Source of the DNA: Posidonia oceanica
Taxonomy: Eukaryota; Streptophyta; Magnoliopsida; Alismatales; Posidoniaceae
Direction of reading: 5' to 3'
NCBI GenBank assembly: GCA_037176725.1
Contig: JAZBRS010000026.1
Location: 64,210,501 to 64,274,500, forward strand
Length of the DNA stretch: 64,000 bases
The position numbers and the translations under genes were made by a program. This document shows, piece by piece, positions 422-58,285 of this stretch. How positions within the stretch are numbered: position 1 is the first letter of the stretch; each line of letters opens with the position of its first letter. The notes beneath the pieces are model-generated. The model was not told where the DNA came from and searched no databases. It worked only from the letters and a program-made list of their open reading frames with translations.

Positions 422-1105
422 TTGGAACTAGCCCGAAAGATTATCAAAGAATATGAGCGGAGGAATATAGTCTTCAAGGACTCGGAACTACCCACTCCAG
501 AGAAACAGCTCTGGCCCTTAGTGATCACTGTAGAGGTCAACGGCTACCTCCTCCCTGGCATACTTGTAGACACAGGGGCTAGTCGCAGTGCGTGCTCTCT
601 GAACACACTCGACTACTTGGACGTCGAAGAAGAAGAGATCACCAAGGAGAAGATCTTCTGCAAGGGCTTTGATAACAATCAGACAGAGGTAATAGGGACG
701 GTCCAGCTAGCAATTACCATCGGCCCCCTCACCAGCATTACCAAGGTCATGGTGGTGGAGTGCGAACTAGCAGAACTGTTAATCCTGGGAAGAACTTGGT
801 TGGCAGAAATATGTGCAGTCGCGTCCCCAACACACCAGCTATTAAAGTTCAAATTCCAAGGGGAGATGATCACCATCAAGGTAGACCATGAAACAACTTT
901 GGAAATGATGTGGAGACCCTATCTGGCAGGATTTCACATGGGAGACCCATCACCAAATGGCACAGGCGGCTGGATCGATGACTGGGAGGATGAAGCCCCA
1001 AGCATCCAAGGATTCCAGGAGTTCACAGATGGTCAAGCCACCCAAGGGTATACCCAGGTCCAGAGGCCTACATTGTTAAGCTCATCTCAGCTGCCCATAA
1101 ATTAG
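422..1105 (+). pseudogene. E1 first retropepsin-like aspartic protease domain
   Basis: This is a retroviral-type aspartic protease of the kind that processes the Gag-Pol polyprotein. The active-site motif LVDTGAS is at about 564-584. The usual downstream motif of the fold appears as LLILGRTWL, followed by a basic HQLLKFKFQGE strand typical of Tat proteases. The domain ends at a TAG at 1,103-1,105, after an acidic Trp-containing tail. Just downstream lies a second, more conventional protease in another frame. The catalytic DTG is intact, so the domain itself could fold; the element around it is broken. Confidence 0.75.
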
Positions 1106-1290
1106 GGGCAATCTCTCCTCAGAAGACCTCTATCTTTGCTTAAGTCCGGCTACGCCAAGGGAGAACACAACGAAGCTCAGCAAGCCCCCATCACAAGAAC
1201 AGGGTGGATCTCCAACCAAGTCGCACCGCCTCCGCCTGATGCAGAACGAGCCGTTTCCCCGCCTCAACAAGAGTTCCACATACCCCGAGG

Positions 1291-2121
1291 ATAGAAGGCA
1301 CCTTCGACATCCTGGAGCAGCTCAGGAAGACACAAGCAAAGATCTCTATCTACGAGCTGATCAGGGCCTTGGAGAAGCACCGGGATATCCTGATGGAGGT
1401 ATTGAAGAAGGCCCAAGTACCGGAGGACATACCCGTTGAAGCTCTAGTAGCCGTTGCCGCTGCCGTGTTCATAGAGCCTACGGTCATCTTCACTGATTCT
1501 GAACTAGCTCATCCTGAGAGAAGGACCCTACCGTTAAGTGTTACTATTGTAATAAACAATTATAAACTTTGCGGTGTACTTGTGGATACAGGGGCAACTC
1601 TAAACGTATGCTCCCTAGAAACCCTGCAGTTAATTAGGCTAACAGAGTCTCAATTATGCCTAGCAGCCTCAACTGTATCAGGGTACGACAATAACAAGAA
1701 AGCAGCCTTGGGGAAGATCACCGTCAAAGTTACCATTGGCCCGCTCCAAATAGAAACAGAACTGATAATAGTCGATGCCCCAATCTCTTATCGACTCATC
1801 TTAGGGCGCCAATGGATCGAAGAGATCAAGGCAGTCACCTCCCCGCGCCACCAGTGCATGAAGTTCCCTTACCAAGGGAAGATCATCAAAATACGGGGAG
1901 ACGAGCCAGTAGAAGCTGAAGCCCACCTGGTGACAGTCCCAACTACCACGCCAGCACCATTGATCAGGGACTCAACTAGCAAGGCCATAAACAATGTCAA
2001 GAAGGTCTTTGCTCCCCAGAGTATTGATATAAATCAATACGATTACCCCGACCACATGAAAAGGCCTTGGGAGATTCTCCTCAAGATAGAGTACACCCTG
2101 GGGAAAGGACTTGGCCGCTAA
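1291..2121 (+). pseudogene. E1 second aspartic protease domain with glycine-rich tail
   Basis: This copy has the full context normally found in Tat elements. A helical lead (FDILEQLRKTQAKISIYELI, then a KHRDILMEVLKKAQ segment) comes first. Then come the active site LVDTGAT near 1,579-1,599 and LILGRQWIEEIKAV. The E0 element (24,888-25,950) has the same order, so this is the orthologous protease and the copy at 422-1,105 is the extra one. The end, LGKGLGR, resembles the glycine patch that follows some retroviral proteases and is cut by TAA at 2,119-2,121. It is in a different frame from the first copy, so a frameshift lies between about 1,106 and 1,290. Confidence 0.75.
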
Positions 2122-3228: not shown

Positions 3229-4395
3229 GTCGGAACAGGAAGGAGCTGATCACCCAAACTGTCAGAGTATGTCACTATACCACGGCATTACCACGGGAGC
3301 TAGCCATGTCTCATGCCATCTTCCTGGTCAAAGAAGTGTCAAACATTACCGGCAAAAACACAGGAAACTATGAAGTTTTCGAGCTGGTGGATACAGAAGA
3401 GGACCCAGATGAAGAATTAGTAGACCCTGCCATCTTCGAAGAAATGATGAAGAAGTACGATGAGCAGACCAAGGCTGCCGCTGAAGAAATGAAAGAAGTC
3501 AATCTGGGCACTGAAGACGATCCAACACCAGTTCAGATAAGCTCTACACTCAGCTCAGGTGAATGAACTAGAATGGAAAAACTACTCAAAAAATATATGA
3601 AGGTACTGATCTTCTCCTACGGAGAAATGCCTAGGCTTGATTTACTACTGGTGGAGCACAGGCTCCCTCTCAAGCCAGGCGCTAAGACAGCAAAGCAAAA
3701 GCTCCGCGGTCTACGTCCAGACCTCGCTCTAAAAGTCAAAGAAGAGATAGACAAGCTACACAAGGCAAAGTTCATTAGAGTTGTAGTATATCCAGAGTGG
3801 AATGCCAACATAGTTCCAGTGATGAAGAAAGATGGCAAAGTACGTGTGTGCATTGACTACAGGAACCTCAATGAAGCATGCCCAAAAGATGATTTCCCTC
3901 TTCCACATATAGACATCCTCATAGACAACACTGCAGGCCATGATATGCTCTCATTCATGGACGGTTTCTCTGGTTACAACCAGATTAAACTCACAGAAGA
4001 GGATCAAGAGAAAACCTCATTTACCACACTATGGGGGACCTACTGCTATGTAGTCATGCCGTTCAGATTAAAGAACGCCGGAGCCACCTATTAGAGGGCT
4101 ATGATGGCAATCTTTCACGACATGATACACGATTGCATGGAGTGCTATGTGGATGATTTGTTAGTAAAGTCAAAAATAAGAGAGGGACACTTTGAAGCAC
4201 TAGAAAGAGTACTTCGGAGAGCAGACCCGTACAATCTCAGAATGAACCCCAAGAAGTGTATCTTTGGGGTCACTACCGAAAAGCTACTCAGCTTCATAGT
4301 GAGCAAAAGGGGCATAGAAGTCGATCCCACCAAAGCTAAAGCTATAACAGCCATGCCACCGCCAAAGAATATCAAGGAGCTCAGAGGACTCAAGG
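3229..4395 (+). pseudogene. E1 reverse transcriptase
   Basis: The lead is acidic (ELVDTEEDPDEELVDP, then VNLGTEDDPTPVQIS, typical of Tat). The RT palm and fingers follow: VRVCIDYRNLNEACPKDDFP, the catalytic-Asp block SFMDGFSGYNQI, and YVDD at 4,146-4,157. A TAG at 4,092-4,094 replaces the Gln of the usual ATYQRAM. A one-base frameshift near 4,395 moves the continuation (RFISQHAEKCRPFYELLKGG) into the next frame. The protein would copy the element RNA into cDNA in virus-like particles. Key catalytic residues are still readable, but the frame is broken. Confidence 0.9.
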
Positions 4396-5016
4396 AGGCT
4401 ACAGTTTATCCACAGATTCATCTCTCAGCATGCGGAAAAGTGTAGACCATTCTATGAGCTCTTAAAAGGCGGCACAAAATTCAAGTGGGATCATACCTGT
4501 CAGAAGGCCTTTGATGAGTTAAAGCTCTACCTCCTCAACCCCCTAGTATTGACTACTCTAGTCCCCGAGAGGCCATTGCTACTCTACTTGGCCGTTACTG
4601 ATAACTTAGTGGGTGTCATCCTTGCACAACATGATGAGACTGGAAGGAAGGAGAAAGTGGTTTACTACCTCAGTAGAATGTTCATTGAATACGAGAGGAA
4701 GTACTCCCAGATCGAGAGACATTGCCTAGCCTTAGTATGGGTCTCACAGAAGCTCAGGCACTACTTTTTGGCACACAAAGTCTGCTACTTAGCCAAGATG
4801 GACACTATTAAGTACATGTTCGAGAAACCAGCATTGTCCGGAAGGCTAGCACGATGGCAAATGCTCCTTACTGAGTTCGACCTGCAGTTTGTCACTCAGA
4901 AGGCGATCAAGGGGCAAGCTATCGCGGGTCAACTCGCCGGGCTACCTGTGTCAGAGTATCAGCCAGTATCAACAGATTTCCCAGACGAGGAAATACTGGC
5001 AATCAATAGTGTCATG
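4396..5016 (+). pseudogene. E1 RT connection and first (RT-linked) RNase H
   Basis: The frame starting just after the shift near 4,395 reads FYELLKGGTKFKWDHTCQKA, the RT connection, then the Ty3-type RNase H core: YLAVTDNLVGVILAQHDETG, VYYLSRMF, YSQIERHCLALVW and KLRHYFLAHKV. It ends with the GRLARWQMLLTEFDLQF block. The domain degrades RNA in RNA:DNA hybrids during reverse transcription. It is open through into the second RNase H in the same frame. The Lys-Gly-Gln-Ala motif before the next domain (KGQAIAGQLAGLPV) is the normal linker KGQALADFLA in decayed form. Confidence 0.85.
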
Positions 5017-5523
5017 CCACTCATCAGAGAATGGACCCTCCATTTCGATGGAGTGCTTAATTCAAAGGGGACCGGGATAGGGGCAACACTCCTCACTCCG
5101 GAGGGTATTGTTCTCCCCGCTGCAGTCCAACTGCTCTTCTCAGCGAGTAATAATATTGCAAAATACGAGGCACTCATTTTAGGGCTCTAATTGGCTCTCG
5201 ATCTAGGGGCAAGAAGACTAAAAGTAGTTGGGGACTCACATCTTGTCATACAGCAAGTCCTCAACAAATACAAGACCCTCTCACCAAAACTGCAGGAATA
5301 CCGCAACCTAGCTAAAGCTTTACTGAAGAAATTTGACAGGGTTATGTATGTGCATGCACTTAGAAGCAACAACATCCTGGCTGATTCATTGGGCTCATTG
5401 GCATCCTCGCTCCCCTTCAGCTCAGAGACAGACAAGCAATCCATCATGGTGCGAAGAATCAGCGCTCCAACAGTGGAGTTTGCCACCGAATGGGTTCAAA
5501 AACTCAGAGAGGAACTAAACTAG
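5017..5523 (+). pseudogene. E1 archaeal-type second RNase H (aRH)
   Basis: WTLHFDGVLNSKGTGIGATL is the start of an RNase HI fold of the archaeal/plant type, distinct from the Ty3 RNase H just upstream. Candidate catalytic residues of the D-E-D-D set are all present: HFDG, KYEALILG, VVGDSHL and NILADSLG. A TAA at 5,188-5,190 replaces a Gln codon, and the domain ends at TAG 5,521-5,523. A second RNase H here is the signature of the Tat lineage. I read it as an intact fold with one transition-type stop. Confidence 0.85.
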
Positions 5524-6836
5524 GAAAGCTTAATGTGCATAGAGGTCTGTTATCAAGGAGCTACAGAAGTAAATGACGATGGCAACCAATGGTATTATGA
5601 CATACAGAATTATGTACAAGATCGCACCTTCCCGACCTATGCAACTCCCAAGGACAGAGAAGCATTGAGGAGGATGGCTACGAAGTACTACATCAGAGCC
5701 AACACACTCTTTCGGAGAACACCCCTAGGGATTGAACTCTGATGTGTGGATGCATCTGAGTCAGCCGAGATTCTCAAGGAAACACATGAGGGAGTCTGCA
5801 GGGGTCACATCAACTTTCAGTTCATGGCTAAAATGATCATCAGGAGGGGGTATTACTGGCCTATCTTGGATGCTGACTGCGCAAGTAAAGTCAAGCGGTG
5901 CAAGAGCTGCCAGCTGCATGCCAACAAGATTCATGCTCCAGCTTCAGCGCTTCACACTTTATCAACACCATGGCCTTTCTCCATGTGGGCCTTTGATGTG
6001 GTGGGACCCATCCATCAGGGAAAGGGCAACACTTTCATCCTAACGGCGACGGAATACTTCACCAAATGGGCAGAAGCAGAGGCGTTCGCGAACATCAGAG
6101 CCACAACCCTGTGCCGATTCGTATAGCAAAATATCATCGCAAGGTTCGGGGTGCCTAAAGCTTTAGTAGCAGACAACGAACCGATCTTCATCTCAGAAGA
6201 GTTCAAGTGGTTATGCCGAAAATTCGGTATCACTCTACACCACTCTTTCCCGTATTACCCACAAGGGAATGGTCAAGCAGAAGCTACTAATAAAACCTTA
6301 ATCAAAATCATTAAAAAGACGGTAGAAGACGCTACGGGATCGGATTGGTCAGATAAGCTTGTTAATGCATTGTGGGCATACCGCACCACCATAAGGACGG
6401 CAACGGGTTAAACCCCCTATGCTTTAGCCTTTGGTATGGAAGCAGTGGTCCCATACGAGATCCTGATCCCCTCATTAAAAGTTAAGATTGATAGGAGAAT
6501 GTCTGCTGAAGAAAAGAGGCAAGCTTTACTCCTTCATTTAGAACTCCTTGATGAGAAACGGCTGGCAGCCGCCGAGCATACGCGTGTCTACCAACAAAGG
6601 TTAACCAAGGCTTACGAAAAGAAAGTATCAACCGCAAATTTAAAATTGGTGATCTAGTGCTTAAAGTAGTGTTGCCTTACAATAAGCCCCACCTTAAGCG
6701 AAAGTTGAAGCCAAACTGGGAAGGGCCCTACATAGTGGTTGCTGCATATCCAGGGAATGCTTAACGATTGTCCCATAACGGAACAGATCTTCCTGACCCT
6801 TGGAATGCAATGCACTTGAAAAGGTACTACCCTTGA
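5524..6836 (+). pseudogene. E1 integrase with zinc finger, DDE core and GPY/F tail
   Basis: The His-His-Cys-Cys finger is visible as THEGVCRGH and KRCKSCQLH. The catalytic core has the first Asp in MWAFDVVGPI, the second in ALVADNEPIF and the Glu in NGQAEATNKT. The C-terminal GPY/F module reads LKPNWEGPYIVVAAYPGN. Stops occur at 5,740 (TGA), 6,124 (TAG for Trp), 6,409 (TAA) and about 6,763 (TAA). A frameshift near 6,635 moves the GPY module to another frame, ending at TGA 6,834-6,836. The protein would insert the cDNA. No chromodomain is seen, as expected for Tat. Confidence 0.9.
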
Positions 6837-8295
6837 TCAGCATACCTATATCATTGAAGAGACCTAGGGCCTAACACCAAGCCAGAAAGGAGAGAGATTC
6901 CCAAAGCCAATAGGAAGAGGAACACCTGGGGGACCCATACCTTGTCCTGTCTCCACATACACACTGCACGGGGTGGTAAGGGAAAAGTGGGCTCGGAGTG
7001 GAGGCTTAGAGTGCAAACTGCTTGTCAGGTAACCTAGAAAGCGTCAAAAAAGACGGCGACAAAAACTGCCCTAATAGAGAGGAAAGAAGGCAGCAAAGAA
7101 GTTGTCCAAGTAAGGAACAAACGAAAGGAGACAGTAAAAAAAATTGTTCAACTAAATAATGTCAGCAAAGAGCTGTCCAAAGAGCGGAAAAAAGCAAGGC
7201 AACAGCTGTCTGTGCATCTAAAAGTATAAACCATAGAAAGACGCATTAAGGACTAAAGAAAGACAACCAGGAGTCAAGGCCTAAGCCAAAATCGAGAGTT
7301 CACTGTATCCCGAAACCTCCCCTATCTTGTTCCCATTAACAGGCAAGGAGTAAGCAACCCCAGGTGGTCAAGGATTGAAAAGGCCCAGGGAGTAGCAACC
7401 CGAGTAAGGACTGGTGTGTGGACCAAAGTTTCTAAAAGGATACAGGCATGGCCTAAGGGACACGTCCACGAATGTAGGGCCCACTCATTTGGTTGAAACA
7501 GACCCCAAGGTTAATGCCTAAAGTAGGTACTCATCTTTCCCCATTAGAAAAACTAAAAATCCAAAAAAATCACATAAACTAAAAATCCAAAAAAAAAATC
7601 ACATAACCTAAAAATCCAAAAAATCACATAACCTAAAAATCCAAAAAAATCACATAACCTAAAAATCCAAAAAAATCACATAACTCAAAACACCAAAAAA
7701 ATTTACAAAACCCAGAAAAAAACCCAAGACATCCAACCTACCTGCAAGTGAGAACTTAGTTAGTAGGAAAACTGGAATTAATCTGGCCGATGATGCAACC
7801 ATCAACTCACTAGGATTCAGAGTTAGCGTCCTACTCAAGTGTGTCTCACGGCTTGGGTGCGCTCTCTCAACAAAGACATTACTCACATAATGATCTTTAG
7901 AACATCCACAGATGACTCACAATCAACGTCTACTGGGCTCTGATTTCCATCTCTTTAGCTGAGGCTAGAAGTTATTTCCCTCCACCCATTTTAAAATAAG
8001 CATGCTTTCTTGGCATTAACATCTGTTATGTCTTCTTCTTAATTAATTAACTTAGCCTAAACCTTTTCATTTGACATATCTTCTCTTCGATTAATTAATC
8101 AACTTAGCCAAATCTCTCGCCAAGGAAGGTATGCTTCGTGATTACTAACAAGAAAAGTAAGCATGTGCAGGAAACAAAGCAAAACAAAAACATTTCATAT
8201 GAATATTCACCAGTACAGACTCTGGCAAAAGAAAAGTACAGACTCTAGCAAAAGGAAAGTACAGACTCTGACAGAAACAAAAGAAAGGTACAAGC
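6837..8295 (+). other. E1 3' tail after integrase, non-coding
   Basis: No convincing gene. It holds several imperfect copies of AGCAAAGAAGYTGTCCAAG (about 7,085-7,240), an A-rich minisatellite at 7,551-7,690, and a run of CAGACTCTRRCAAAAG copies at 8,215-8,280 next to the end of the antisense PMD gene. The same order of parts is found in reverse orientation in E3 (59,049 down to 57,900), which ties the two elements together. Confidence 0.6.
7551..7690 (+). repeat. 26-bp A-rich minisatellite (AAAAATCCAAAAAAATCACA type)
   Basis: About five and a half copies of a unit near 26 bp, each containing CTAAAAATCC and AATCACATAA. A related array, reverse-complemented and longer, is at 57,925-58,285 in E3 in the same position relative to integrase and the PMD gene. 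Confidence 0.8.
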
Positions 8296-11200
8296 TCAAT
8301 GGCCAGACTCGCCGCTACCCATGCGTTCGCCGCCTGGGGGCCTCCGCACGGGCTGCGCCACGGAAGACGTCGCTCCGCTCTGGCTCCTCTCCCGAGACCT
8401 CCTCAGTAGAGAACAAAGCAGCCCAAGATGAGGGGAGGATCGTGCTCTCGCAATCTGCTGAGCTGACAGAACTCTGGAGTGTGCTGACACCGACGGGGCT
8501 GCAGCAACCGGACTAGGGAAGTCAGTGTCAGGAACAACCGCCGCGACTGCCGCCTGAGTCTCCGCCAACTGTGCCTCCAACTCCTGTATCTGCTGGCTAC
8601 GACCAATGCTCAGCTGTAGTAAAGAAGACAACAGTCCCAGGGTTAGAATAATTAAGCAAGAAGGCTAGCAGTAACCAAAGGTGCTCAAGTGGAAAAGGGG
8701 TTACCTTTCTTGTGGAGTCAGCCTCAAACTGAACCCTAGCCATGGCTGCGTCAAATGCAGCCACACGGGCCTCCAACTCCTGGATGCGGCTATCATGCTC
8801 CCGCTCCACCTGACTGAGACGCCCCTGTAGCTCCTCGGCATGCCCCAAGGCATCGTCTAGCTAGCTCTGAGCATGATCGATGGCTGGAGGTGTATGGATC
8901 AAATCCATCATTGCCTGAATCTGCACAATGAAGCTGTATGAGTTAGAGGATAGGTATTTACAAGAACCTAAAGCAAGAAAAGTGTGATAGTACCTCTGAA
9001 TCGCGAGCCCGGACCTCCTTAGCAAGTATGCCCTCGGCACGGGAAGTAGCTGGACCTGTGGTGGCAGCAGGGGCAGGCTCTGCACTTGTCGAAGCACCCT
9101 CGGCCTATATTAAAGCAAAGACAACAGTTAGACAAGTAGAAACAGGCACAAACAACTAAAAAAGGGAAACTAGACTCACTCGTGCTCGAAGCTCGTCCAT
9201 CTGGGACAGGAGCTCGTCCCTCTCCCGCACTAACTTCGCCACTCTCAAGGAGTGCTGCTCCTGCTGAGTCCTGAACGCCTCAGTCATCCCCTCTGAAGCG
9301 TCCATCTACGCAAACAAAGGAGATGTGTAAGCAAGTGAACAAGTAAAGGGACAGTAAAATAAGACAACACTAAAAGGAATTGCTTACCAGCTCCTCAATG
9401 CGGCTACGGGCAATCGCCAACTCATGCCGAAGGTCGCCAATGCTTACACTAGGACCAATGCCCATCGGTACGTTGGAGCAACCATAAAAGATGGTGCAAT
9501 GGAAGACAATCAAATGGCCAAACTTAGAATCAAACCAGGTCCTCCATGCCGCCTCTGTCTCTGCAGAACCACTAGAAAGGGGCGCTGTGCCACCTGAGTG
9601 CCAGTTCTCGAGCTACTCTCCAAACCGTTGAGGAGTATCAGTCCGACCTCCCTTAATAGATCCCCGAGAGCAATCCGCAGGACCTGACGCTGGAACAACC
9701 TGCCGAAGGCCAAACTGTCGCAGCACACGGCCCACCTGGCTATAGTGACATTGGATGAGGCTAAAGAGCCAGCACTCCCGAAAGAACAAGTGGGAACCGC
9801 ATGCCATGGGCTCCTCAGCAGCATGCTCATTCTCAGAGTAGGGTCTCCAAACAACCTGCAAGCACAAATCAGTCAGAAACTAATTAACTGTGCACGGAAA
9901 GAAGGGTCTAAGCACTGAAACTCACCCACTCCTCTAGGAGGATCTCTAACAGGAAGCGGCCCAGATGTCTCACAGGGCGAAGCCGTTCTGGAGCCAACTT
10001 CACATCACTCCACCGTCGAGCCCGGGGAAACTCGACGGGACCATCTCCTGGGACTCCGGGTCGAAGGTACACGAAGTACTCAAAAATCTAGGTCTGTCAC
10101 ACAAAGGAACAGTTCAAAGTCAGCAATAGTCAAACAAACAGAAGGCAAGCAAATAAATAAAGCACAAACCTGGAAAAGGGGCAGACAGCCCGAAAGAGAG
10201 TGGGTCTGGCCTGCAACAAAAGACTCTAGTCTAGAGATCAAATAGACCAACACGGCTGAACCCTAGGAACAACTACCAATCCTCTCCACATTCAGAAGGA
10301 GAGGGGCAAAACCAGCATGTAGCATCTGTGAAGACGTGCCGAAGAAGAGTCTATGAAACAGAATAGACAAAAAGAGCCGGAGTTGCAGATCCGCTATGTC
10401 TGGGGTCACGTCGTCAACAAGAAGAAGGTCGTCCAGTCGGTCCTTCAGCCACTTGACGTTGACGTGTGTATGGAAGCGACCAGAAGGGGGAGGTCGTGCA
10501 CCATAACAAGCCTCTAGCTCGTCGCCATAGTAGGGCTGCAAAATCGCCACCACGGGCTCTCCGTCAACCCTCAGGCCCACCAGCCGAACTACGTCCTCCA
10601 GGGTGATCATCATCTCACCCATGCGAAAGATGAAGCTGCCAGAACTACTATTGAACCTCTCGGCAAAAGAAACCAGAAGTCCAAGGTGAATATCGGAGGG
10701 CATGATCTCCAAAAAATGGCCGAAGCCCATCCTCGCAAGTCTCGCCCGCTGGAACTCTGGGAGGTTGATGTATGTCTCATGCAGGTCCTCCCAGCTGGAG
10801 TGCGCCCGGCTCGACAATGGCATCTGACATAAAAGAAAACATTAAAAATATTAGTAACTTAATAACAATCAAGCAAAGTAACTTGATAAAAGCCAAAAAC
10901 ACATAAAATAACCTCACCTGGCCTAGCTCTGCGAGCTCTATTGCTGTACAGGCTCTCCTAGCAGGAGAAGGGACCGCACCTGAACCAGGGTCACCCTCGT
11001 CGCCGCCACCAACCTCAGGCTAGACAGGAGATGGCGCACGTGGATGCCTCGTCCGAAGCTTGCGAGGACGAGAGGAGCTCGCCTCCGCAGTGGAAGGACT
11101 GGCCTCGTCCCTCCCCGTCTTAGCCTCCTCGTTAGAAGCCCTGAAATAGTGCCACGAGCAGAGCATAGTCAGTTAAAGTCATTAGTAATCCCCTTAATCA

Positions 11201-12458
11201 TTTTCTTGAACATTAGGTAATCCGCCTAAACATTAACTGACTAAAAAAACTCAAGACATCACTTTAACTAACCAATTTAAACTTAAAATCAATCCTTAAA
11301 AATTAATCTTTAAAGTTAATCAATCCTTAAAAATTCAATCCATAAAGTTAATCCCTTTAAATTAATCCTTAAAAATCCTTAAAATTAAAATTAATCCTTA
11401 AAATTAAACAACTTTAAAAATTCAACTTTTAAAATCTATCTTTAAAATCCATCTTTAAAGCTCACCTTTAAAATCCATCTTTAAAAATCTATCTCTAAAA
11501 ATTCATCTTTTAAAGTTCTAAAAATTCATCTTTAAACCCCGAACTTCAAAATTTAACTTTAATATCCTAACTTTAAAATTTAACCTCTAAAAATTAAAAA
11601 TCCAACTCTAATCCAACTTAAACCTTTCACTAATCCATTTAGGTAACAAATATACCATTAATTCCTTTATTCTAAATTGACAATACAATTAAAACTTAAC
11701 AGTGGAATCCTTTTACACGTTTAAATCCCAAAGTCAATTCCTCTACATTCAAAATCCAAAAATTAATCTAGATTCCATAAAATCTCTTAAATTTCTAGGA
11801 AAAATTTGCCATAACCTCCCCTATAATTTCAACTAAAAAATTTTCTATTTTCCTGCAAATCAACAATATGCATTCATATTTCCACAAAAAAGACTAAATG
11901 AACATTCAAATCTCCATAAAAAATGGATTTTCATCCACATATCACATTCACATCTAAATTTCCATTTCCCCTTCACATTCACATCAGAAAATTGACATTT
12001 AAAACATAACTTTGAATAATTGAATCCAATAACTGAATTAAAGCCTAAAAATTTAAATCAAATTTCCATGAACTTAAACCAAATTGAATTTTAATCTAAA
12101 TTTCCACAATCAAATTGAATTCACATTCCCATTTACATAAAACCTAAATTTCCATGTGCATTTAAATATCAAATGTCCACAATAAACTGAAATTATAACT
12201 GAATAACTAAAGTAAACATCAAATTTCCATTCCACAATAATTCCACAAACTAAAATCATTCTAAAAATCAACAGAAATTCTCCCAAAACCCACTGTCCCC
12301 TTTCCGGCCGTCCACCGCCGGCCCACCGTCGCCTCACCAAGCCCAGAGGAGGAGGGAGGAAACAGGAGGAGAGGAGGAGGAGAATACCTCCTTCGCCGGC
12401 AGGAATCGCCGTCACTGCCGCCGCCACTCGTGTCTCCCCCGCTGCCTTCACTCGCCAT
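8296..12458 (-). pseudogene. Antisense plant mobile domain (PMD) protein gene carried in E1, nine exons
   Basis: Proposed exons on the minus strand are 12,458-12,388, 11,140-10,918, 10,823-10,172, 10,093-9,926, 9,855-9,388, 9,305-9,180, 9,106-8,994, 8,920-8,705 and 8,613-8,296. Introns begin GT and end AG, and phases join where checked. The first protein segment (MASEGSGGDTSGG) is Ser/Gly-rich. Exon 3 holds the PMD core: RLARMGFGHFLEI, then FRMGEMMITLEDVVRLVGLR. Exons 4-5 continue it (FEYFVYLRPGVPG, VVWRPYSENEH). Exons 6-9 form coiled coils rich in Glu, Arg and Leu. PMD proteins such as Arabidopsis MAIN and MAIL1 act in the nucleus in transposon silencing and genome stability, and PMD is common in plant transposons. 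Five in-frame TAG stops replace Gln or Trp codons, so this copy is dead. The gene runs against E1. Confidence 0.75.
11141..12387 (-). other. Long AT-rich first intron of the E1 PMD gene
   Basis: Extremely A+T-rich sequence dominated by CTTTAAAATCCA-like words. The donor is AAGGAG|GTATTC at 12,388/12,387 and the acceptor is CTATTTCAG at 11,141. Joining AG to G GCT TCT keeps the frame. No other gene is seen in it. Confidence 0.6.
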
Positions 12459-12859: not shown

Positions 12860-15800
12860 TGTAGACACTCCATTTTGACAGGCTGAATCAATGGAATCCT
12901 TCTGGTGGCTTCGAAACGTGACTTAGAAAACCCTCACCCAAAAAATCAGAAAAATTAAAAACTTTAGGACCTTGAAGCCAAGCCCAAACTTAACCTAGAA
13001 TCACACTCCTTTCCCAAGCCCAAAAACTCCCCAAAAACCATAGGAAAACTCACCCTTCCCAACTTAGCAAACCTACCAAAAAACCCTCAAATTTTCAAAC
13101 CAAAATCACTCCCCAAAATCCTGGAAAACTTAGGTAAAACTACCCTTTTTCTACACCTCAAAACCCTTCCAAAACCTTCCCAAATCCAAACCCAAACCTT
13201 AGGTCCAACACTAGAGATCCTAGGCCACACACTCTACAAATTTCACCTCTTTCCTAAACCTCTAACCCCTTCATTTCTTCAAATTATCCTTTTCTCTCTC
13301 CTAGATTATTCTTTTCTCTCTCCTCTCTCTCTCCTGATTATCCTCCTTCTTTTCACTCCCTTCTCCCTCTTCTTCTTGCTTGGCTGTGGGCCCACCTTGT
13401 GCATCTATCTTTCCTATATCTTATTTATATTTTTACTTTATTTTTAGCTTATTCCTTGATTTTTTAATATTTACTTTCCTTCCACTCCTCTTTTTCTTCT
13501 TTACTCTTTCATTTCTCCCTTTTCTTCTTCCTCTCCCTTTCCTTTTCCTTTCTCCCACTAAATCTTTAAAAAATCTTTAAAAAACCTTTTAAAACTTTAA
13601 GACAAAAGAAAAACTAATTAAAATCCTAACAAGAAGTAATTAAGAACATAAACAAGCAATTAAAAACAAAAACCTAACTAAATCCAACTAAAAAAGGAAA
13701 CCATGAAGGCAATCTAAAAAAATACAAAACAAACAAAAAGAAAATGCTATAAAATCAAGCAAAAACCAAAGTATAATCAAAACAAACCAAAAGTAAAAAT
13801 CCTATTAAAAATAATCAAAAAAACAAATCTTAAAAAGAAAGTAAACAATTAAAAACTCTAAGACAAATAATTAAGGGAAAACCTAACTTAACAAATCTAA
13901 AAAGAACAATTTAAAAACTTATTTAAAAAGAAAAAAAGAAACAATCAAAAATTTAAAAAACACTCAATTAGAAACTTAACAAGAAGAACTCAACTAAATA
14001 TAAAAAGAATTTAACAAACAAAATCGAATTTAAAAGAAGACTTAAAGAAAACTCTAAAAGATTAAAATCAAAAGCTAAAACTCACCCTAATTAATTTAAA
14101 AAACAATCTTTAAAAGGCCTAATCAAAAATCCCAAAGACTTAACAAGAAACACATAACTAAAAATAATTTTAAAACTCAACAAACATATAAACAAAATCA
14201 GAAAACCATTTAAAGAAAACCTAAACCCTAAAAACTCAATTCAAAACTAAAACTCTTTCTATTCCTAATTAACTAATAAAAAACAATCATTAAAAAACCT
14301 AATTAAAATCCTAGCTTAAACACAACTACTCTAAGAACTTTTTCAAGACTTTTCTATTCTCATTTTTATTTTTATTTTTATTTTTATTTTCAATTTTCTT
14401 CTTCTTCCTCTTCTTCCTTTCTTTTCCTTCCTTTCTTCCTTTCTTTTCTATTTCTTTTTCTTGCTTTTGGCCCGGCCCAGCCGCTGGCCTTCTCCCCCCT
14501 TCTTTCTTTTTTTCTTTTTTTGCGCAACCGGCCCACACCTCTTCCGCCTCCCCTTCTTTCCTTCTTTATTTTCATTTCATTTTTTCCCTCTCTCTCCTTT
14601 TCTTCTCCTCTCTTCTTCCAATCGCCAGCTGCCATGGCCGTTTTTCAAACTCGCCTGACACCCTCCGTCAGCGTTGGCTTCCCGCACCTCACAACCATCC
14701 CTTCCTCCATCAGACCCCCTTCTGTGGCAGCCGACCTAGACCAAGACCAAGCTCCAACGGCCTTCACATGCACCGGCAGACTTGAAAGAGGGAAAGAGAG
14801 TTTTTTTTTCCAACAACAGCCTCAGCATACACCCAGCTCCAGCTCCTGAATGCAACCAAGCCACTACTGCCTCTTGTCACCCAGAAAAAGAGCCATCAGA
14901 GAGTGTGAGAGCCCGGAGCAATCTCCTTCTTCCTCTGTCGAAATTCTGCATTTTTCTCCTCCTCCTTCCTTCTGAAAACTAGACCTGCAAGCCCCTCCAA
15001 ACCGATCCCACATTCATCCCCCAAACTCACCCAACACCCAGCATCCTTCACCACCCCTCCACGGCCAGTAAACCAACCCAAATCCACCCTCATTCATCTG
15101 AAATCCACCGCAGCAACCCAACTCCACCTCCATCTAGAATTCCCGCACCACAGACCACCAAATCTTCCCAAAATCCACCCAGCAACCCACTGAGACACCA
15201 CCTTCCCAAACCATCCAAGCTTTAGCCTTCACCCTCACCACACTTCAAACCCAACACCACAAACAGTTGTCCCTTCCTCCTGTCCAAAAATCCACATACC
15301 TGCAAACTCTTGAACCAGGCCTCTACGACCCAATTTGACCTTCCAGAAACACTCACCCAGCATCTAGAAGCCCACCGGACGCTTCCAATCGGCCTGAGGA
15401 GCAACACAGACCTCCCCCCACCTCCAGCTGTCACCAGTGCACCCAAAGTTGCAATTTCTTCCGCCGGTCATCAGAGCTTCCGTCCGAGCATCCAGCGAGC
15501 TTCGGAGGACCGTGTGGAACAGTTCCAGACGCTCGCGAGCTGCCGGAGACGCCCACACCAGTCAGCCCACCTTCGCCGGCCTCTGCTGAAGTAGCCGACG
15601 TCGGGGGGACGCTCCAGCCATCGAATCAGGTAGCTTTCCTCCCTAGTAGACTAGATTCCTCCCCTGCATGCTTCCCAGCCCCTTAGAATAGGATTCTGCT
15701 TCCCTTCGCGTCGAGTCAACCCCACCGCTGACCTTCCTTCTCCGGCGACGTCCGCACCCAAACCGCCGCTCCGGTTAGCAGAACTTGCTCCTGAACGTCG

Positions 15801-18800
15801 CCTGAGGACCGCACGAGCTCCAGGAGCACAGCCATGCCTCCGGTTTCCCCTGGTGTCACTCCAGCCGTTCGGTCGGCCTCCTCTTGGTTAGTCAAGCTCT
15901 GTCGTCGTCTCCGATCGTCGTCAGGCCACACCATGGCCCTCCGACATAGCTCAGGCCTCCGCACGCCTCCGGAGCACGCCACCCGCCGCCCAGTGCCTCA
16001 CCAGCAGCCCTCCTCCTCTGTCTCCGGTCACTGATAGCTTTGTGCTACAGTGTCCTCCTTTGCCTGCAAATCATTGTGCCTTTATTTCTCCTTAGCATGC
16101 ATTTTTTGCCAAATATTGCATTTTTGCCCTGCTGTTTTCTTTTATTACATTCTGGTCCTGCCTTTGTTTAACAATCATTTAAATTTGAATTTAAATCTTA
16201 TTAAATTGCATGAAAAACTTAAAAAACCAATTAATTGCTTTCCAGTCCTTCCGTTGTGTTTTCCTTTTAGATTTATTTTAGTTCAGGCCCTGTAGTTTTT
16301 TATTTTTTCATATCAGTCCTTTAATTGATAATCTGATTTAATGCTTGTATTTTACCTTAGTAAATTGCATTTTTAAACCCTGTTGTTTTCCCCATTTTCA
16401 CTTTAGTCCTCTGTTCTGTTAACTCATGCAATTATTTTCCAATTTTTCTTACTGCATTGCATCATTTCCCCCATACTTTCTAATTTTTGCATATAGGTCC
16501 TTCATTAATGCACAGCATACATTTAAATGCATATTTTGCTTATAAAATTGCATTTTAGACCCTGCATGTTTTAAAAATTGCACATAGGTCCTCTACATGC
16601 TTATAAAAGTCATTTAAATGCATATTTTGCTTATAAAATTGCATTTTAGACCCTGCATATTTAAAAATTGCATATAGGACCTCTGTTTGCATTCCCAAAC
16701 TATTAAGACCACTGTTTTGCTTACAAAATTGCATTTTAGACCCTGTATATTTCAAAATTGCATGTTAATCCCCCATATGATTTCAAAACTTGTCCTAATG
16801 CATGTTTACTTTGTAAAATTGCATTTTGAACCCTACATTTTGCAAAATTGCACTCAGACCCTCTAGTTTTCAAAAAACCTTGCATAAAAGCCCCTAACTT
16901 TTCAAAATCTTTGCACTTAGACCCCTTTTCTTGCATTTTTGCACACACCTGCCCTAATTAACCTTGCATTTAGTCCATGCATCCTTGCATTAGCACCCTT
17001 GCACACATTTGCACTCTTTTGCATGCATTTAGGGTTAATTTGCACATAATCCCCTGCACTCTTCCTATTTGCACATAGGTCCTCCCCCTTTGCATGTTTT
17101 GCATACATTGCACCCCTTTTTTACTGCACTCAGTCTCCTAGGACACTTTTGAGCACACCTAGCTCCCATTTACATGGGAGGACCTGTTTTGCACACCCCT
17201 AGGACCTCTTTTACACTTAGATCCTTTTTTTTCCCCTGTTCTGGCCCCTCTGCCTTGAAGCTGAGATATCTTCCGATCCGACCGTCAGATCTTCGCAACC
17301 AAGTTACCTAGACGACCCTGGTGGAGTGCTCTTCAGCATGGACCAAGCACTTCTCAGATCAGGCCTCAGATCTCCAAAGTAAGTCCTTCTGAACCCTTGC
17401 TCAGCATTCATTTGCACACCATTTGCATTTCATGCATTGTTTTCACGTCTCGTTTTCCGTGCATGTAGATTAGGACCTCCCCCTTCGTCTAGCAACTCTG
17501 TTCCCCCTCTTCGCGTACTCACAAGTGTTTTGGGTTGAGTTTTCCCTCGGATTCGCTACTGATTGCGGTCTTCTTCCCCCTTTTCCTTGATCCGATTGCA
17601 CAGCGAGCTTTGGGCAGCGTGCGAGACACATCATGGGACGGTTTAGTAGGAAACGATCACAGAATAGTGGCGATCCCTCCACTTGCTTCCTCTCCCCTTT
17701 GTAGGTCTTCACACCTGCATTGTGTGGTTCTTCCGATGTATTGTTCTTACACTCGCACCGCTTATCTCTCCTTTGCATCCGGGCTGGCAGCCCTAACTGC
17801 TCGGTTGACGCCCGTCATGTCGTCTAATCTTCCCCTTTGCTTGTTATACCCCGGCATTGCGTGGCCTTTTTTCGAGGTTTTGCTTCTACTTTTGCATCGC
17901 TTGTTTTTTCGCCTAGATTTGCTTTCGTCTTTGCTTGTCGTACCCCTGCATTGCGTGGCTTCTCCGATGTTTTGCTTTTACATTTGCACCGCTTGTTTTC
18001 TGCCCGGATTTGCTTTCGTCTTTGCTTGTGGTATCCCTGCATTGCGTGGCTTTTCCGATGTTTGTTTCCCTTGCTTCCTGCACCGTTTTGCGCGCCTGCC
18101 TTGTTTCTTGCATCGTTTTGCGCTCATGCTTTGTTTCTTGCGCTGTTTTGTGCGTACGCTCTGTTTTGGCACCGTTTCGCATGCCCATTTTGTTTTCTCG
18201 CACTGTTTTGCGTGCTTGCTCTGTTTTGGCACCTTTTCGCGTGCTCGCTTTGTTTTCACGCACTGTTTTGCGTGCTTGCTCCGTTTTGGCATCGTTTCGA
18301 GTGCCTGCTATGTTTTCTCGCACCGTTTTGCATGCTTGCTCTGTTTTGGCACCGTTTCGTATGCTTGCTTTGTTTTCTCGTACCGTTTTGCGTGCTTGCT
18401 CTGTTTTGGCACCGTTTCGCATGCCCGCTTTGTTTTCTCACACCATTTTGTGTGCTCGCCTTGTTTTGGCGCTGTTTTGCATGCCCGCTTTGCTTTCTTG
18501 CATCGTTTTGCGTGTCGCTCCGTCTTTTGCACCGTTTTACGTGTCGATCTTGTTTTCTTGCACCGTTTCGCGTGCTGCTTCCGTTTCCTGCATCGTTTTG
18601 CGTATTTTACGCTGTTTTCTCTTGCATGTCATCTGCATTGCATGGTTTTACCGTTGTTTTGTTTTATCACCTGCATTTGCATATAGGGCAGTGATGCTTA
18701 CTGCCTGGAGTTCTCACGGACCAGGGTTTCGCCTGGTTCGGAACACAGACAGCGCTGCTGAGCACTTAGATTGTACGTTTAATTCCTTGCATCGCATTCC

Positions 18801-19236
18801 AGCACTTAGAGCACACCCTTGAACATCCACTTAGGCATTCACGGCATTTAGGCATTCAAAGCATGCATTTCCCTTCAAAAGCAAGCGTAAGCCTAGAAAG
18901 ACCCCTTCTCGGGCGTGTCGGGGGTGCCTAACACCTTCCCCGCGCGTAACAGGAGTCCTTACCCTTTCTCTGGTCCGCAATGGCCCTTTTGCCCTCGTCC
19001 TTGGTACGAGATATCCACTTTGCATAGCATTTGCATTGAACTGCATCTTCTTGTGTGGTTTTGCATGTTCTTCATGCATCTCCCTGGTTTTCCTCGTCTC
19101 CCGATTGAATAGACTAGGTGGCGACTCCCCTTTTTTTTTCCTTTATCTTTCCCTCCTCCGTGTCGCTCCATCTGTGAAAACCTCTCTCTCTCGGGCGCTC
19201 TCCTGTCCGAGCCTTGAAGAGAAAGGCACATTCACT
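12860..19236 (+). mobile_element. Solo LTR 1 of an Ogre-like family, TSD CCTAT
   Basis: Starts TGTAGACACTCCATTTTGAC and is flanked by CCTAT at 12,855-12,859 and 19,237-19,241. The last bases read CATTCACT, so the terminal CA seems mutated or the end is ragged. Modules in order are: a start block; oligopyrimidine tracts (13,250-13,560 and 14,330-14,630); a GC-rich block (about 14,640-16,030); degenerate TTGCATTTTAGACCC repeats (16,370-17,140); a conserved block with GACCGTCAGATC (17,270-17,390); 60-bp repeats (18,060-18,650); and a U5-like end with GGTGCCTAACACCTTCCC at 18,920. No PBS, PPT or coding internal region is present, so this is a solo LTR. Its 6.4 kb is extreme but in the range known for Ogre LTRs. 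Confidence 0.75.
18060..18650 (+). repeat. 60-bp tandem repeats (two 30-bp halves) in solo LTR 1
   Basis: About ten units built around TTTTGCGTGCTTGCTCTG and TTTGTTTTCTCGCACCG. Because 30 and 60 are multiples of three, the array leaves long open frames on both strands; these are not genes. The homologous array in solo LTR 2 has a plain 30-bp period. Confidence 0.85.
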
Positions 19237-19355: not shown

Positions 19356-20715
19356 TCAGCCATGCATTGCCATGCTCGAGCGGTTGAGCCCAAGCATCTT
19401 CAGGAATTCCCGCCTGTCATCAGCGCATTTCTGAGGAGTGGGGCAGCACCGTGCATACCACTTCACGTACTTCGACTCCTGGGACTCCCGAGCAGTTGCA
19501 GAAAGCCGAGGCGCACTTAGAGACACTTGCCTACCAATATGAACCCAGTGTGCTATGTACTCCAGGATCATCCTCTCATCTCGATCACTGTCTTCCCTGT
19601 GAATGTGGATTGGAGGGGTCAGAACTGCATTGGCCTGGACAACTAGCTCCTGATTCAGTAGACGTGGACAACGATGGATGGGATACAGCACTAATGATGT
19701 GGCACCCACCAGGACAAGCTCAAGGTCACTATGAACTGTGCTCATCACCCGCGCCTTATGAGCTCTAGGCAGCTTTGGGACAAAGTCAAAATCCTGCAGT
19801 GACAAGCATCCAATGCGGAGGACACAGTCATGGAAGCTTAGGCCAGCGAAATCTGTGTCACAACAACAATGAGACATGAACCACTTGTGCAGTAGCAGTG
19901 GAGAGCCAAAGAACTTCCTTGAACGAGAGGCACTGGTGAGCCCCTCCATGGTGTAAGCCAACACAGCAGGAGCCAAGCACAAGTCTGGACGAACAGCCAC
20001 CAACATTGGGAGATCCACATGGTGAAGATCCATCGTGAAATTTGCGTCTGCAAACAAGGCAAGGCCACTGACTGCTACAAACAAGCACTTTCTCAGCTCA
20101 ACCTCAGCAAATTGCCTGGTGCTAAGAACCTCCCACAGGCCTCGAAGAAAGAGTCTCCCCAAGTGCATCAAAGCCTTGCTAGCCTCCTGATCCATTGCTA
20201 AATACCCGCCTATCTTCTTGGAGCCCACTGTCTCCACAGAAATGGCGAAACGAACATCTGCCACTTCAGTAGATTCCACCGCCAACCCAAGCAAAGAGGA
20301 CACCTCCTTGCATGTGATCAACGTCTCCCCACAAGGAAGGTTGAAGGTATTGGAAGAGCCATTCCAGAAAGCCATCAAGGCATGCAACAATGGCCAAGGC
20401 ACAGGCGTGTGAATCAGATCAAGTAGCTTGTCAAAACCACTACACCCGAAGAGATGCTTGTTATCCTCTACTCGATCGATCAAGCCAGCCACCCACGGTA
20501 GAGTATACCGGAAAGAATTGTGGAAGTCTGGGCATCCCGTGAGGTTCACTACGGCTTAAACAAGCAACATTCAAAGACAAAGCCACAAAGAAAAGCATGC
20601 AAAGACAAAGAGGAGAACATACCTGGTCATCCCGGATAGCTTTCATCAAGTGGTTGGGGATATCAACCACCCTCTTCACTTGGAAGGTCGAAGAAGAGAA
20701 GGAAGGAAGCTTCAT
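19356..20715 (-). pseudogene. Second antisense gene of E1, PMD/DUF7745-like, main exon open
   Basis: Exon 1 (20,715-20,623) starts at ATG (MKLPSFSSSTFQVKRVVDIP) and ends CAG|GTATGT. Exon 2 runs from about 20,555 to TGA at 19,356 and has no stop in about 397 codons, unusual among these decayed elements. The core WPLLHALMAFWNGSSNTFNL followed by CGETLITCKEVSSLLGLAVE resembles the start of PMD and DUF7745 transposon-borne proteins. The family match is by eye and not certain. The acceptor in front of the frame reads TTTAA|GCC where TTTAG|GCC would join exon 1 in phase, so a G-to-A change seems to have destroyed it. Function unknown. Confidence 0.55.
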
Positions 20716-21733
20716 GGTCAAGATAAGGGGTTTGCTTATGCAGAATGCTTCTTGAAAAGCAAGGACGGCCGTCTTTTATCTCCCCTTATCAAAAGAATCA
20801 AGGTTTAAAACGATTTCTAAACTAAATAAGCCAGGAGATCACGCGTCGCCCTATCAATCGGCGACTAGCATAGCTGGCCAGTCAAGAGGCGACTAACTCT
20901 TCAGAACAGACCATCTACTACTGCAAAGCTGAGGAGTGAACTCTTGCCTTGAGTTCACGCACCGTCCACTGCAACCACTACAAACACCTGACGACTTATC
21001 GGATTGGCAAATGAAGGGTTCACTCCCTCACCCGGTTCTCCTTGCACGGAACCTCTTTACTTGCCAAATCGAGCTGTGGGACGACGGTCCTTTCTAGAGA
21101 GTGCTGGTCGCACTTGAGGACGGAAAGCACTTGACCACAACGAATTGCATTCATTCATTTTGCATATGTCCATATGGTTTGGGACCAACCGTACCCCGCT
21201 GGCCTAACCTAGTGTATGGACCATTCATTGCATTGCATGTTGACCTTGCATTATCATCGTATGTTTGAATCATGCATCCATGCATTTTCTCATATCATTG
21301 GAAGTGGAGCACGGATGAAGCATTGTTCTTCAAGAGTGTTAGAAACCCTTTAGGCATATGATTCTCCTAGAGCCAACCCAGTTCATACCTATCCTCTTAT
21401 CAATTCCAATCTGAGTGAAGTCTCAAACAAGATGTCACACTCTCTTTTCGATCGTGCTGGAATAATATCCCGTGATTACCTCCTTAGTGCTTGCCCGTTG
21501 GAACACTTCTACATGGTTGACCTGGTCTTGACTTCGGCTACGACACGAGTTCCGAAACTGACTTGACCCCTCCATGCCTGAGTCTCCAATTTGATGGCAT
21601 TTTAAACCCTCTTTTTATCTTTCCTTTGGCTACTTCAGTGGCAAATTGTTTGAGACGGAGCTCCACTTTCAGGAAATGCTCAATAGGACATCGTTCTTGC
21701 CTTGGACCCGAACTTGTTCCAAGATCAACTCCA
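20716..21733 (+). other. E1 3' untranslated region before the polypurine tract
   Basis: No gene seen. It is also the presumed upstream region of the antisense gene ending at 19,356. It contains CGGCGACTAGC-type words at 20,840-20,900. A TTGCATTTTGCAT-type stretch at 21,150-21,290 resembles sequence in the long LTRs. Confidence 0.4.
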
Positions 21734-21745
21734 AGAAGGGGCATC
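21734..21745 (+). promoter_or_regulatory. E1 polypurine tract
   Basis: AAGAAGGGGCATC lies directly in front of the 3' LTR. It is the expected primer for plus-strand DNA synthesis. The same arrangement (purine run, then ATC, then the LTR) is seen in E3. Confidence 0.6.
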
Positions 21746-23288
21746 TATAGATATCCTATTTTTCGCATTTCTGAGAGCTCTTCTGAGGATAGAAACCTTG
21801 GGGTGCCCCAAATCTCGTGCCTAAGTTTTGATAACACGTCTTCCAGATATTCCTTGACTTCTTTAAAGCATCACTTGATCCTACCTTGACTCAGGTTGTT
21901 GGCTGTGGCAGAGCTAACTCACTCAGGCTCGTGACAAGTCCGAGTACCCTAGGTATCCTTTACTTCTACTCAGATTCGTGGCAGATTTGAGTTAACAGAG
22001 ATGCCTTCTCGATTTCATAGACTATCTGTAGTTTCCTGGCCTTCTATCTTATTTTCTCTGACCAGAACTCGAAAAAAGGGCTGGAAATGACCTAAGCTTA
22101 CTAGTTGCCAGCTGGAGAGGCGACTCAGCTAGTTGCCTACTAGGGAGGCGACTTTGGCAGTTGCCCGCCATACAGCCGACTATGTCAGTTGCCAACACTA
22201 GAGGCGGCTAATTCAAATGTCATTTGAGGAGGCAACCCACTTAGACGCGAACTAACCAGGCGACTGGGCGATCGTGGGCTGCAGCGATTGCTTCCCACGA
22301 CCCCCTCAACCCTCAGGCGCCAGCTCATTCGGTGGCTGAGCGGTTGTGGACCTGCAGCGGTTATCTCCCACGACCCTTGATCATTAGGTGCCAGCTCAAC
22401 CGGCGACTAATGATCGTGGCTCCCTTGAACCGCTTTTCCACAGTTATTTCCCACGACCCCCTCGACCATTAGGCACTAACTCAATCGGCGACTAATAGTC
22501 GTGGCCTCGTTCCCGGGTCTTTCCACACTTTGACTGGGCGGTTGCTAGCCTTAGTCGCCAACTCAACCAGCGACTAACCTTAACTGCCACTTTTTCTAGA
22601 ATTTTCTGAAGTCCAACTGTCCTTACCCCCTAGAGTCTATAAATAGATCCCCTAGGCTAGTGGTTTGAGGGTTGGAATTTTTGGGAAAAGAATTTCCAAG
22701 AGAGGTAGAGCCCTGTCAGTTTTGTAAGCTAACTTCAGAGAGCTAGATTTCCAATCCAGAAACTCTATCTCCGATCCTCAAGAGACTACCAACCTAAGCT
22801 TCTATCTTCGATCCCAGAGATCCTCAGCTACGTCGGAGCTCCAACCGTGCTTCCTTCCAGCTTCATTGCATTCAGCATGAGGGTGAAAGGGAGTATCTTC
22901 CTCCAATCTAATTTCTCATCGCATTTCTACTTTCTTTAGCATAGTACCCATAGCATATGCATGCGGGGAACAACCCTCGGCTAGTATTTGTTCTTTTTTA
23001 GTCATGTTGTTTCATTTACTTCTGTTGCTGACTACTACACTTGAGCTAATCTAGATCTATGTCGTTTCGTTTTGAAGGGAAGGAAGGTGCTTACGTAACA
23101 CAAGGGAGCCACTAGACGACATCTAGCCGTCGATCTAGTGGTCCGAGGACCCACATCATCATAATCTCCCCCCAGGTGTCTTGTCTACCCAAAGGCGAGT
23201 GGCGATCACAACAAACTTGACGACATACGTGGAGGCGCCGACTTCTTCTTAAAACACCCCCACCCCCCCCCCCAAATTCCACACTACA
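21746..23288 (+). repeat. E1 3' LTR (same family as the E2 LTR)
   Basis: Begins TATAGATATCCTATTTTTCG, a decayed form of TGTAGATATCCCATTTTCG at the start of the E2 LTR (34,066), and ends ACACTACA. It is 1,543 bp against 1,780 bp for E2. The two align along their length, including the TATA box, the U5 block ending in TGGCGATCAC (23,200-23,209) and the C-rich end. It holds many GGCGACT/AGTTGCC words at 22,100-22,570. Confidence 0.8.
22638..22645 (+). promoter_or_regulatory. TATA box in E1 3' LTR
   Basis: TATAAATA in the context GAGTCTATAAATAGATCCCC, matched at the same place in the E2 LTR (35,125). Transcription would start about 30 bp downstream, defining the U3/R border. Confidence 0.7.
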
Positions 23289-57924: not shown

Positions 57925-58285
57925 CATCATTTTGTTTTTTTTTTTTTGGGTTTTTTTCTTTTTTTTTTGGATTTTATCATTTTTTGGCTTTATCTTTTTT
58001 TTTTGGATTTTTGGTTTTATGATTTTTTGAATTTTTGGTTTTATCATTTGGATTTTTGGCTTTATGATTTTTTTGGATTTTTGGTTTTATCATTTTTTTT
58101 TTGGATTGGATTTTCTGGATTTTTGGTTTTATGATTTTTTTTTGCATTTTTTGTTTATTTTTTTTGGATTTTTGGCTTTATGATTTTTTGGATTTTTTGT
58201 TGTATCTTTTTTTTTGGATTTTTGGTTTTATGATTTTTTTGGATTTTGGGTTTTATGTTTTTTTTTTTTTTGGATTGAATTTTCT
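57925..58285 (+). repeat. T-rich minisatellite, counterpart of the array at 7,551-7,690
   Basis: Roughly 12-14 irregular units of TTTTTGGATTTTTGGTTTTA with ATGATTT or ATCATTT. It is reverse-complementary in style to the E1 array. Confidence 0.75.

Follow-up and report, generated by a model that had tools for sequence, protein, structure and literature searches.

The DNA analysed here, which we call the window, is a stretch of 64,000 nucleotides from Posidonia oceanica (assembly GCA_037176725.1, contig JAZBRS010000026.1, positions 64,210,501 to 64,274,500 of the forward strand). Together with its left flank it includes a retrotransposon with long terminal repeats (LTRs), element A, and within that element a gene, gene A, whose product carries the plant mobile domain (PMD). 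Element A belongs to a Tat-type family that carries this multi-exon PMD gene as its own, in antisense orientation between pol and the 3' LTR. Negative coordinates denote positions to the left of the window, where 10 kb of flanking DNA were examined for the partner LTR. The features on which the argument depends are as follows.

12458-12388, 11140-10918, 10823-10170, 10093-9926 and 9855-9388, minus strand: exons 1-5 of PMD gene A (exon table)
9305-9180, 9104-8994, 8920-8705 and 8613-8296, minus strand: exons 6-9 of PMD gene A (exon table)
9595..10724, minus strand: plant mobile domain, exons 3-5 of gene A (product residues 132-459; span derived from the exon table)
422..2121, plus strand: protease region of element A, with two tandem retropepsin-like domains
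3567..6408, plus strand: stop-interrupted pieces of the element A pol, namely reverse transcriptase (RT), RNase H, a second RNase H (RVT_3) and integrase
21733..21745, plus strand: polypurine-tract region of element A, AAGAAGGGGCATC, directly 5' of the 3' LTR and alike in a second element, element C
21746..23288, plus strand: 3' LTR of element A, with CCTCC directly after it at 23289-23293 (ends taken from the printed letters)

Gene A runs on the minus strand from 12458 to 8296 in nine exons, as an earlier note on this DNA had described it, and all eight introns have GT..AG borders with consistent phases (phase 2 for intron 1, phase 0 for the other seven). The GC fraction is 0.53-0.69 in the exons and 0.24-0.43 in the introns. 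The spliced product, with X at the stops, matches the PF10536 profile at 132.3 bits (E=3e-38; profile positions 2-320 of 347), above the gathering score of 34.9 bits, which bears out the PMD identity that had been proposed. The core of the domain had been placed in exon 3, and the open part of that exon up to its stop does match the profile (65.7 bits), but the domain extends over exons 3-5. Of the coiled coils claimed for exons 6-9 there are weak heptad hints, but all Pfam coiled-coil matches in the spliced product lie below cut-off, and the p values of a heptad test (0.09 for exons 5-6, 0.18 for exons 7-8, 0.11 for exon 8 and 0.82 for exon 9) are no better than that of the control, the PMD itself (0.17); in gene C, the homologous gene of element C, the same test gives 0.0075 for exon 6 and 0.49 for exon 8. 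The gene had also been presented without stops, whereas five in-frame TAG codons interrupt it, at 11022, 10265, 10090, 9615 and 8863, two of them at tryptophans that are invariant or nearly so across 27 homologues. Because a full protein cannot be made through these five stops, the copy in the window is a pseudogene.

The gag-pol of element A lies on the plus strand, opposite to gene A, with gag at approximately -1078..-359 and a pol whose order is protease, RT, RNase H, RVT_3-type second RNase H and integrase; as judged from its reading-frame pieces, pol is interrupted by stops and a change of frame. RVT_3 is found between RT_RNaseH and integrase (at 5191-5520, E 8.6e-10; a match at the end of 4549-5190 is weak, E 0.1), and this second RNase H is the trait by which element A is classed as Tat-type among Ty3/gypsy elements, in the Ogre/Retand domain order given by Neumann 2019 (PMC6317226; this and the other papers are cited from those parts of their texts that were accessible, and statements about them are confined to those parts). 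The element also has the PMD-type extra reading frame that is a trait of Ogre. Its 5' LTR lies at approximately -4787..-3252 and is 93.4% identical to the 3' LTR over 1540 nt, and a CCTCC target duplication stands at both outer ends of the pair. Since the LTR pair and its matching duplication enclose the gene, gene A lies inside one complete element, of about 28.1 kb, or 21.7 kb without a nested insertion (L1, described below). The LTRs have diverged by a Kimura two-parameter distance (K2P) of 0.068, a value that is slightly high because the aligned stretch (21749-23293) included about 7 bases beyond the LTR. With substitution rates of 1.3e-8 and 7e-9, which we take to be applicable, the insertion would be 2.6-4.9 million years old.

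That the gene belongs to the element, and not to this one insertion, is evident from other copies in the 2.96 Gb genome. A search with exon 3 of gene A gave at least 150 matches (150 scored of 20102 candidates); among the matches listed, every copy apart from that in the window is 86-92% identical to the query, and the matched part is free of stops in 26 of the first 50 listed (counted by eye, the window copy included). In the six copies that were fetched, the first six listed after the window's own, exons 3-9 lie on one strand without exception, GT..AG is retained at 33 of 36 introns, and integrase lies on the strand opposite to the PMD in five, none being found in the sixth (L035). Exon 3 has one stop in the window copy and 0, 3, 1, 3, 0 and 3 in the fetched copies. 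Over the 21 pairs formed by these seven copies, the ratio of nonsynonymous to synonymous divergence (dN/dS) in exon 3 is 0.27 (range 0.17-0.52), in agreement with the expectation of selection on the PMD exons; these figures include decay after insertion, and therefore the gene was selected in active lineages. Judged from its codons, then, the PMD gene of this family has been under purifying selection, which suggests that the PMD does a protein-level job for the element. This bears directly on the idea that the functional product is the antisense transcript, which would form double-stranded RNA with the sense RNA. The gene does overlap the 3' region of the genomic RNA, and the possibility has been raised in PMC7264820, but the dN/dS of 0.27 and the pattern of identity by codon position between genes A and C, given below, show selection at the level of protein, and we regard a role of the transcript alone as very improbable.

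A second comparison is offered by a diverged element on the minus strand of the same window, element C.

48348..56874, plus strand: PMD gene C, homologous to gene A, interrupted by the solo LTR L2; first exons uncertain
60408..61079, minus strand: gag region of element C, which resembles the gag at 37946-38740
7550..7702, minus strand: tandem array 3' of gene A, unit GATTTTTTTGGATTTTT..., with five exact T6GGAT5 words
57999..58264, plus strand: tandem array 3' of gene C, with the same T6GGAT5 word as beside gene A

Gene C is antisense to the minus-strand gag of its element, as gene A is to gag-pol. The domains of the two genes are about 36% identical over 413 codons, with identities of 0.50, 0.57 and 0.31 at the first, second and third codon positions; no dN/dS value is given for this pair because its synonymous sites are saturated (proportion of synonymous differences, pS, 0.79). 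Introns 2-6 are bounded by GT..AG in both genes, introns 3 and 4 fall at exactly the same aligned positions, intron 5 is close to where the alignable part ends, and intron 2 is in a stretch that aligns poorly; between the intron sequences themselves (introns 2-6) there is no significant likeness, the best match being an 11-nt word at E 0.009. Gene C is itself broken: its exons 3-8 contain eight TAG codons and one TAA in frame, nine stops in all. When L2 and one copy of its duplication are taken out of the coding exon, the frame is kept, with two TAGs, so that the empty site was in frame. Nothing in the stretch between the gag of element C and its PMD gene (57000-61100) matches the pol pieces of element A, the piece of gag at 60408-60893 has no Pfam match, and from its sequence element C is possibly a non-autonomous derivative. 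That a host PMD gene older than the element, or a chance juxtaposition, accounts for the arrangement has in its favor only that plants have PMD genes. The ends and duplication of element A enclose gene A, so that the locus does not predate the insertion, the arrangement recurs in five of six other copies, and gene C is antisense to gag in element C; we consider this explanation refuted.

The earlier note had argued that introns can be retained in such a place only by antisense transcription. In outline the argument holds, since splicing of the genomic RNA leaves antisense introns in place, but it is not absolute, because in Ogre a sense intron is retained through partial splicing (PMC6317226). 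In the mechanism that we propose, the introns would be kept since the genomic RNA is the complement of the PMD gene, and the gene would be transcribed from its own antisense promoter and then spliced. A spliced gene under purifying selection within a retrotransposon points to the use of antisense-strand splicing by the element, and it suggests that surveys based on uninterrupted reading frames can miss genes of this kind.

PMD extra reading frames of Ogre (Tat) elements were reportedly described by Steinbauerova in 2011. They are present in 57% of Ogre elements according to PMC6317226, which scored only uninterrupted reading frames of at least 250 codons; PMD is the most frequent unusual domain among Gypsy consensus sequences (PMC9289625), and the PMD-A1/A2 clades are exclusive to Gypsy elements (Ikeda 2017, PMC5418596). 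Antisense frames are known in Tat/Retand elements (PMC7264820, PMC11963269, PMC4093653), and PMC8616336, PMC7264820 and PMC11963269 describe as unknown what PMD and antisense accessory genes do in plant retrotransposons. The presence of PMD in Ogre elements, antisense frames and the idea of counter-silencing are already in print. Gene A resembles the published Ogre and Gypsy frames in that a PF10536 domain is encoded by Tat/Ty3-gypsy elements, and is distinguished by its nine exons, its antisense orientation and its intron positions common to domains that are only about 36% identical; the passages covered on the Ogre frames do not give the orientation of those frames. From the antisense TRP28 (Transposase_28) frames of Retand (PMC11963269) it differs in domain. 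In the accessible text of PMC7264820, PMC11963269 and PMC4093653 the word "intron" does not occur, and PMC7264820 states that for antisense frames lying 3' of pol no clear protein similarity had been described, a statement hard to square with an antisense PMD. By titles and the beginnings of abstracts, in a search that most subscription journals lie outside, no paper among those listed links Ogre-type elements to antisense intron-bearing genes, and none joins PMD with VANC21, the protein considered next; as far as the literature was covered, the multi-exon architecture of the antisense PMD gene is not mentioned.

VANC21 is encoded by the Arabidopsis transposon VANDAL21, strips methylation from its own family and binds short motifs repeated in non-coding DNA; VANC proteins carry DUF1985 (PMC5735166). 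Counter-silencing by element PMDs has been suggested in the same paragraph of PMC8616336 that mentions VANC21, with no structural link there, and PMC6419827 names the two as separate talks. A possible link of that kind comes from a model of a full PMD homologue, P0009 (predicted local distance difference test, pLDDT, 83.5): of its 86 PDB matches at E<=10 the only one at E<=0.001 is 9lnj_A, a complex of VANC21 and its target DNA (E 6.3e-5, probability 1.00, template-modelling (TM) scores 0.37/0.44, root-mean-square deviation 6.2, 10% identity), and nothing in a viral library reaches E<=0.001. DUF1985 is matched weakly by 8 of 27 PMD proteins (best E 0.0015), and because these matches lie below cut-off the PMD proteins are not classed as VANC. 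The suggestion made in the earlier note, that the gene might counter silencing, has in this way gained some structural support, and the fold modelled for a homologue of gene A hints that the protein may help the element to escape silencing. The likeness may extend to the DNA beside the genes. Exact T6GGAT5 words number 10 in the window, five beside each PMD gene, against 0.02 expected, and with one mismatch allowed the count rises to 19, whereas none of 60 permuted words of the same composition exceeds 4; the arrays of elements A and C are 79% identical over 154 nt (without a low-complexity filter), and the word occurs on the PMD strand in all six fetched family copies (1 to 4 words). The agreement among family copies is not independent evidence, because it is shared by descent, whereas the comparison of A with C is.

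We propose that the product of the PMD gene would be a nuclear DNA-binding protein working like VANC21, that it may bind repeated motifs in the element's own non-coding DNA, with the T6GGAT5 array as the candidate, and that it would oppose host silencing and so let gag-pol be expressed. The parallel with VANC21 would consist in an element-encoded protein, an intron-bearing gene, a match of one PMD model to the DNA-bound protein, and targets that are tandem-array motifs in non-coding DNA; the differences are that VANDAL21 is a DNA transposon, that VANC21 carries DUF1985 and that its anti-silencing activity has been shown experimentally (PMC5735166), while a corresponding activity of the PMD is a proposal. 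Several observations weigh against this interpretation. Both TM scores for P0009 and VANC21 are below 0.5, with the large deviation and low identity already given; a model of gene A exon 3 (pLDDT 81.0) has no PDB match at E<=0.001, VANC21 not being among its 28 matches; profile searches of PDB sequences do not find VANC21 from PMD; and DUF1985 scored singly gives 14.0 and 15.3 against a cut-off of 35.1 bits. With the low-complexity filter on, the array is lost from the A-C comparison, whose best block is then 58 nt (E 1.8e-7), and the array may act as a terminator where the genes converge, or it may be simple T-rich drift or the result of shared descent. The 'DOWN' motif, linked to MAIN and MAIL1, has no exact match in our search, and with up to one mismatch it occurs 11 times against 6.1 expected, a count reached by 3 of 100 shuffles. 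Finally, the five stops of gene A exceed the mean of 2.0 predicted from decay after insertion (95% range 0-5; P(>=5)=0.04), and therefore one or more of them may be older.

Taken as a whole, the explanation that a Tat-type family has its own antisense multi-exon PMD gene, acting in the manner of VANC21 against silencing, stands in our judgment at about an even chance. The VANC-like reading of the PMD is a lead drawn from models, and one that makes the idea of counter-silencing directly testable. A wider and more tentative proposition, which we think rather less probable than its contrary, is that PMD and VANC share one DNA-binding fold and that the intron-bearing antisense PMD gene of Tat elements and its cognate array form a self-contained anti-silencing module; if so, the host silencers MAIN and MAIL1 would have the same fold as a transposon anti-silencing protein. 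The antisense gene might instead regulate the element's own expression or its nuclear import, with no role against silencing, a function already put forward for other antisense frames; here the nuclear localization of the Grande protein, an antisense promoter and the analogy with accessory proteins offer precedents (Vicient and Casacuberta 2020, PMC7264820). Such a role leaves the VANC21 fold match unexplained, a match that is, for its part, not reproduced with exon 3 alone, and we think it unlikely.

The relationships of gene A to other PMD proteins bear on another alternative, in which its product is a dominant-negative partner or decoy of MAIN/MAIL1/PP7L complexes and not a DNA-binding anti-silencer. 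MAIN and MAIL1 act together with PP7L in the silencing of elements (PMC7156037), MORC1 expression depends on them (PMC9899485), and they have the PMD in common with gene A; they are, unlike it, host genes that support silencing and are not borne by elements. None of the 28 database PMD proteins compared is more than about 26% identical to gene A, which branches apart from them, and we would give a decoy only a small share of the probability. In a tree of these 28 proteins with frame B, a further reading frame of element A, genes A and C group together in a separate clade (support 1.0), which joins two Daucus proteins with weak support (0.42). The description of gene A as a host gene is for this reason doubtful, and Ikeda 2017 (PMC5418596), while leaving the direction open, leans the opposite way, to host domestication of a retrotransposon PMD. 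Searches of viral contigs, of PDB by sequence and of NCBIfam gave no credible relative.

A genome search with PF10536 gave at least 231 matches (116 of 80731 first-look candidates scored), from which a comparison set of 20 copies was formed by the first-listed match on each of 20 contigs (L009-L028). These represent another PMD family, 23-29% identical to gene A exon 3, with L027 giving no match. No pol was matched within about 9.5 kb at 19 of the 20; at L024 there are RT and RNase H matches on the strand opposite to the PMD. T6GGAT5 occurs in none of the 20. The end of exon 3 falls at the same place, directly before GT, in all 20, and therefore the intron there probably predates, to judge by its position, the split between these PMD families. 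The sole full-length single-exon PMD among the matches listed, L001, has a 704-codon frame with no intron in the domain and is perhaps a host gene; its frame (L001:778-2889, minus strand) has a charged, helical-looking tail. Contig C62 has numerous PMD copies at approximately 0.4-1.86 Mb (loci L004-L008); a good part of these lie on one strand at intervals of about 25.4 kb, in what looks like a tandem array of PMD-carrying units.

The remaining features of the window concern a second LTR family and frame B.

12860..19236, plus strand: L1, probably a solo LTR from a different family, which lies within element A between gene A and the 3' LTR
50999..56355, plus strand: L2, a solo LTR that interrupts a coding exon of gene C and is flanked by the duplication CTTGG
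39929-45342, minus strand: L3, a solo LTR that interrupts the polypurine tract of element C and is flanked by the duplication GAGGG
19356..20549, minus strand: frame B, a second diverged PMD-like reading frame, 397 aa, open and antisense

For L1 the candidate duplication is CCTAT (12855-12859 and 19237-19241), and its decayed 3' end is without a terminal CA. As the 3' LTR of element A it was ruled out, because L2 and L3, members of its family, are solo LTRs flanked by clean duplications, and it is the LTR at 21746 that pairs with the 5' LTR and CCTCC. The purines before the two LTR starts (9 of 20 before L1, 11 of 20 before the LTR at 21746) decide little; the aligned polypurine tract in element C is more telling (score 39, against a best of 23 in 300 shuffles). 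Frame B lies between L1 and the polypurine tract and, if L1 is a solo insertion, is part of element A. A protein search with it gave no credible relative, and it does not match DUF1985. It is open over 397 codons although the neighboring gene A and pol are broken.

The two retropepsin-like domains of element A (464-886 and 1480-1902, plus strand) are 42% identical, with the DTGA motif in both. The sequence that follows the 5' LTR of element A is GAAAATTACCGATCACGG, and in a sister LTR copy it is GAAAATTGGCGATCACGG. Another sequence, TGGCGACTCCGCTGGGGA, which we take to be a match to tRNA-Arg, lies at 29964 on the minus strand, within another element and not element A. The Ogre primer site is complementary to tRNA-Arg (PMC9289625). 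The GGTGGCGACTCC motif of L1-L3 was ruled out as a primer site, since it lies about 150-170 nt inside the LTR end in L2 and L3; primer-site-like motifs of the GGTGGCGACTCC type recur in this LTR family near the LTR 3' end, at 19117 and 56180 on the plus strand and at 40092 and 30145 on the minus strand.

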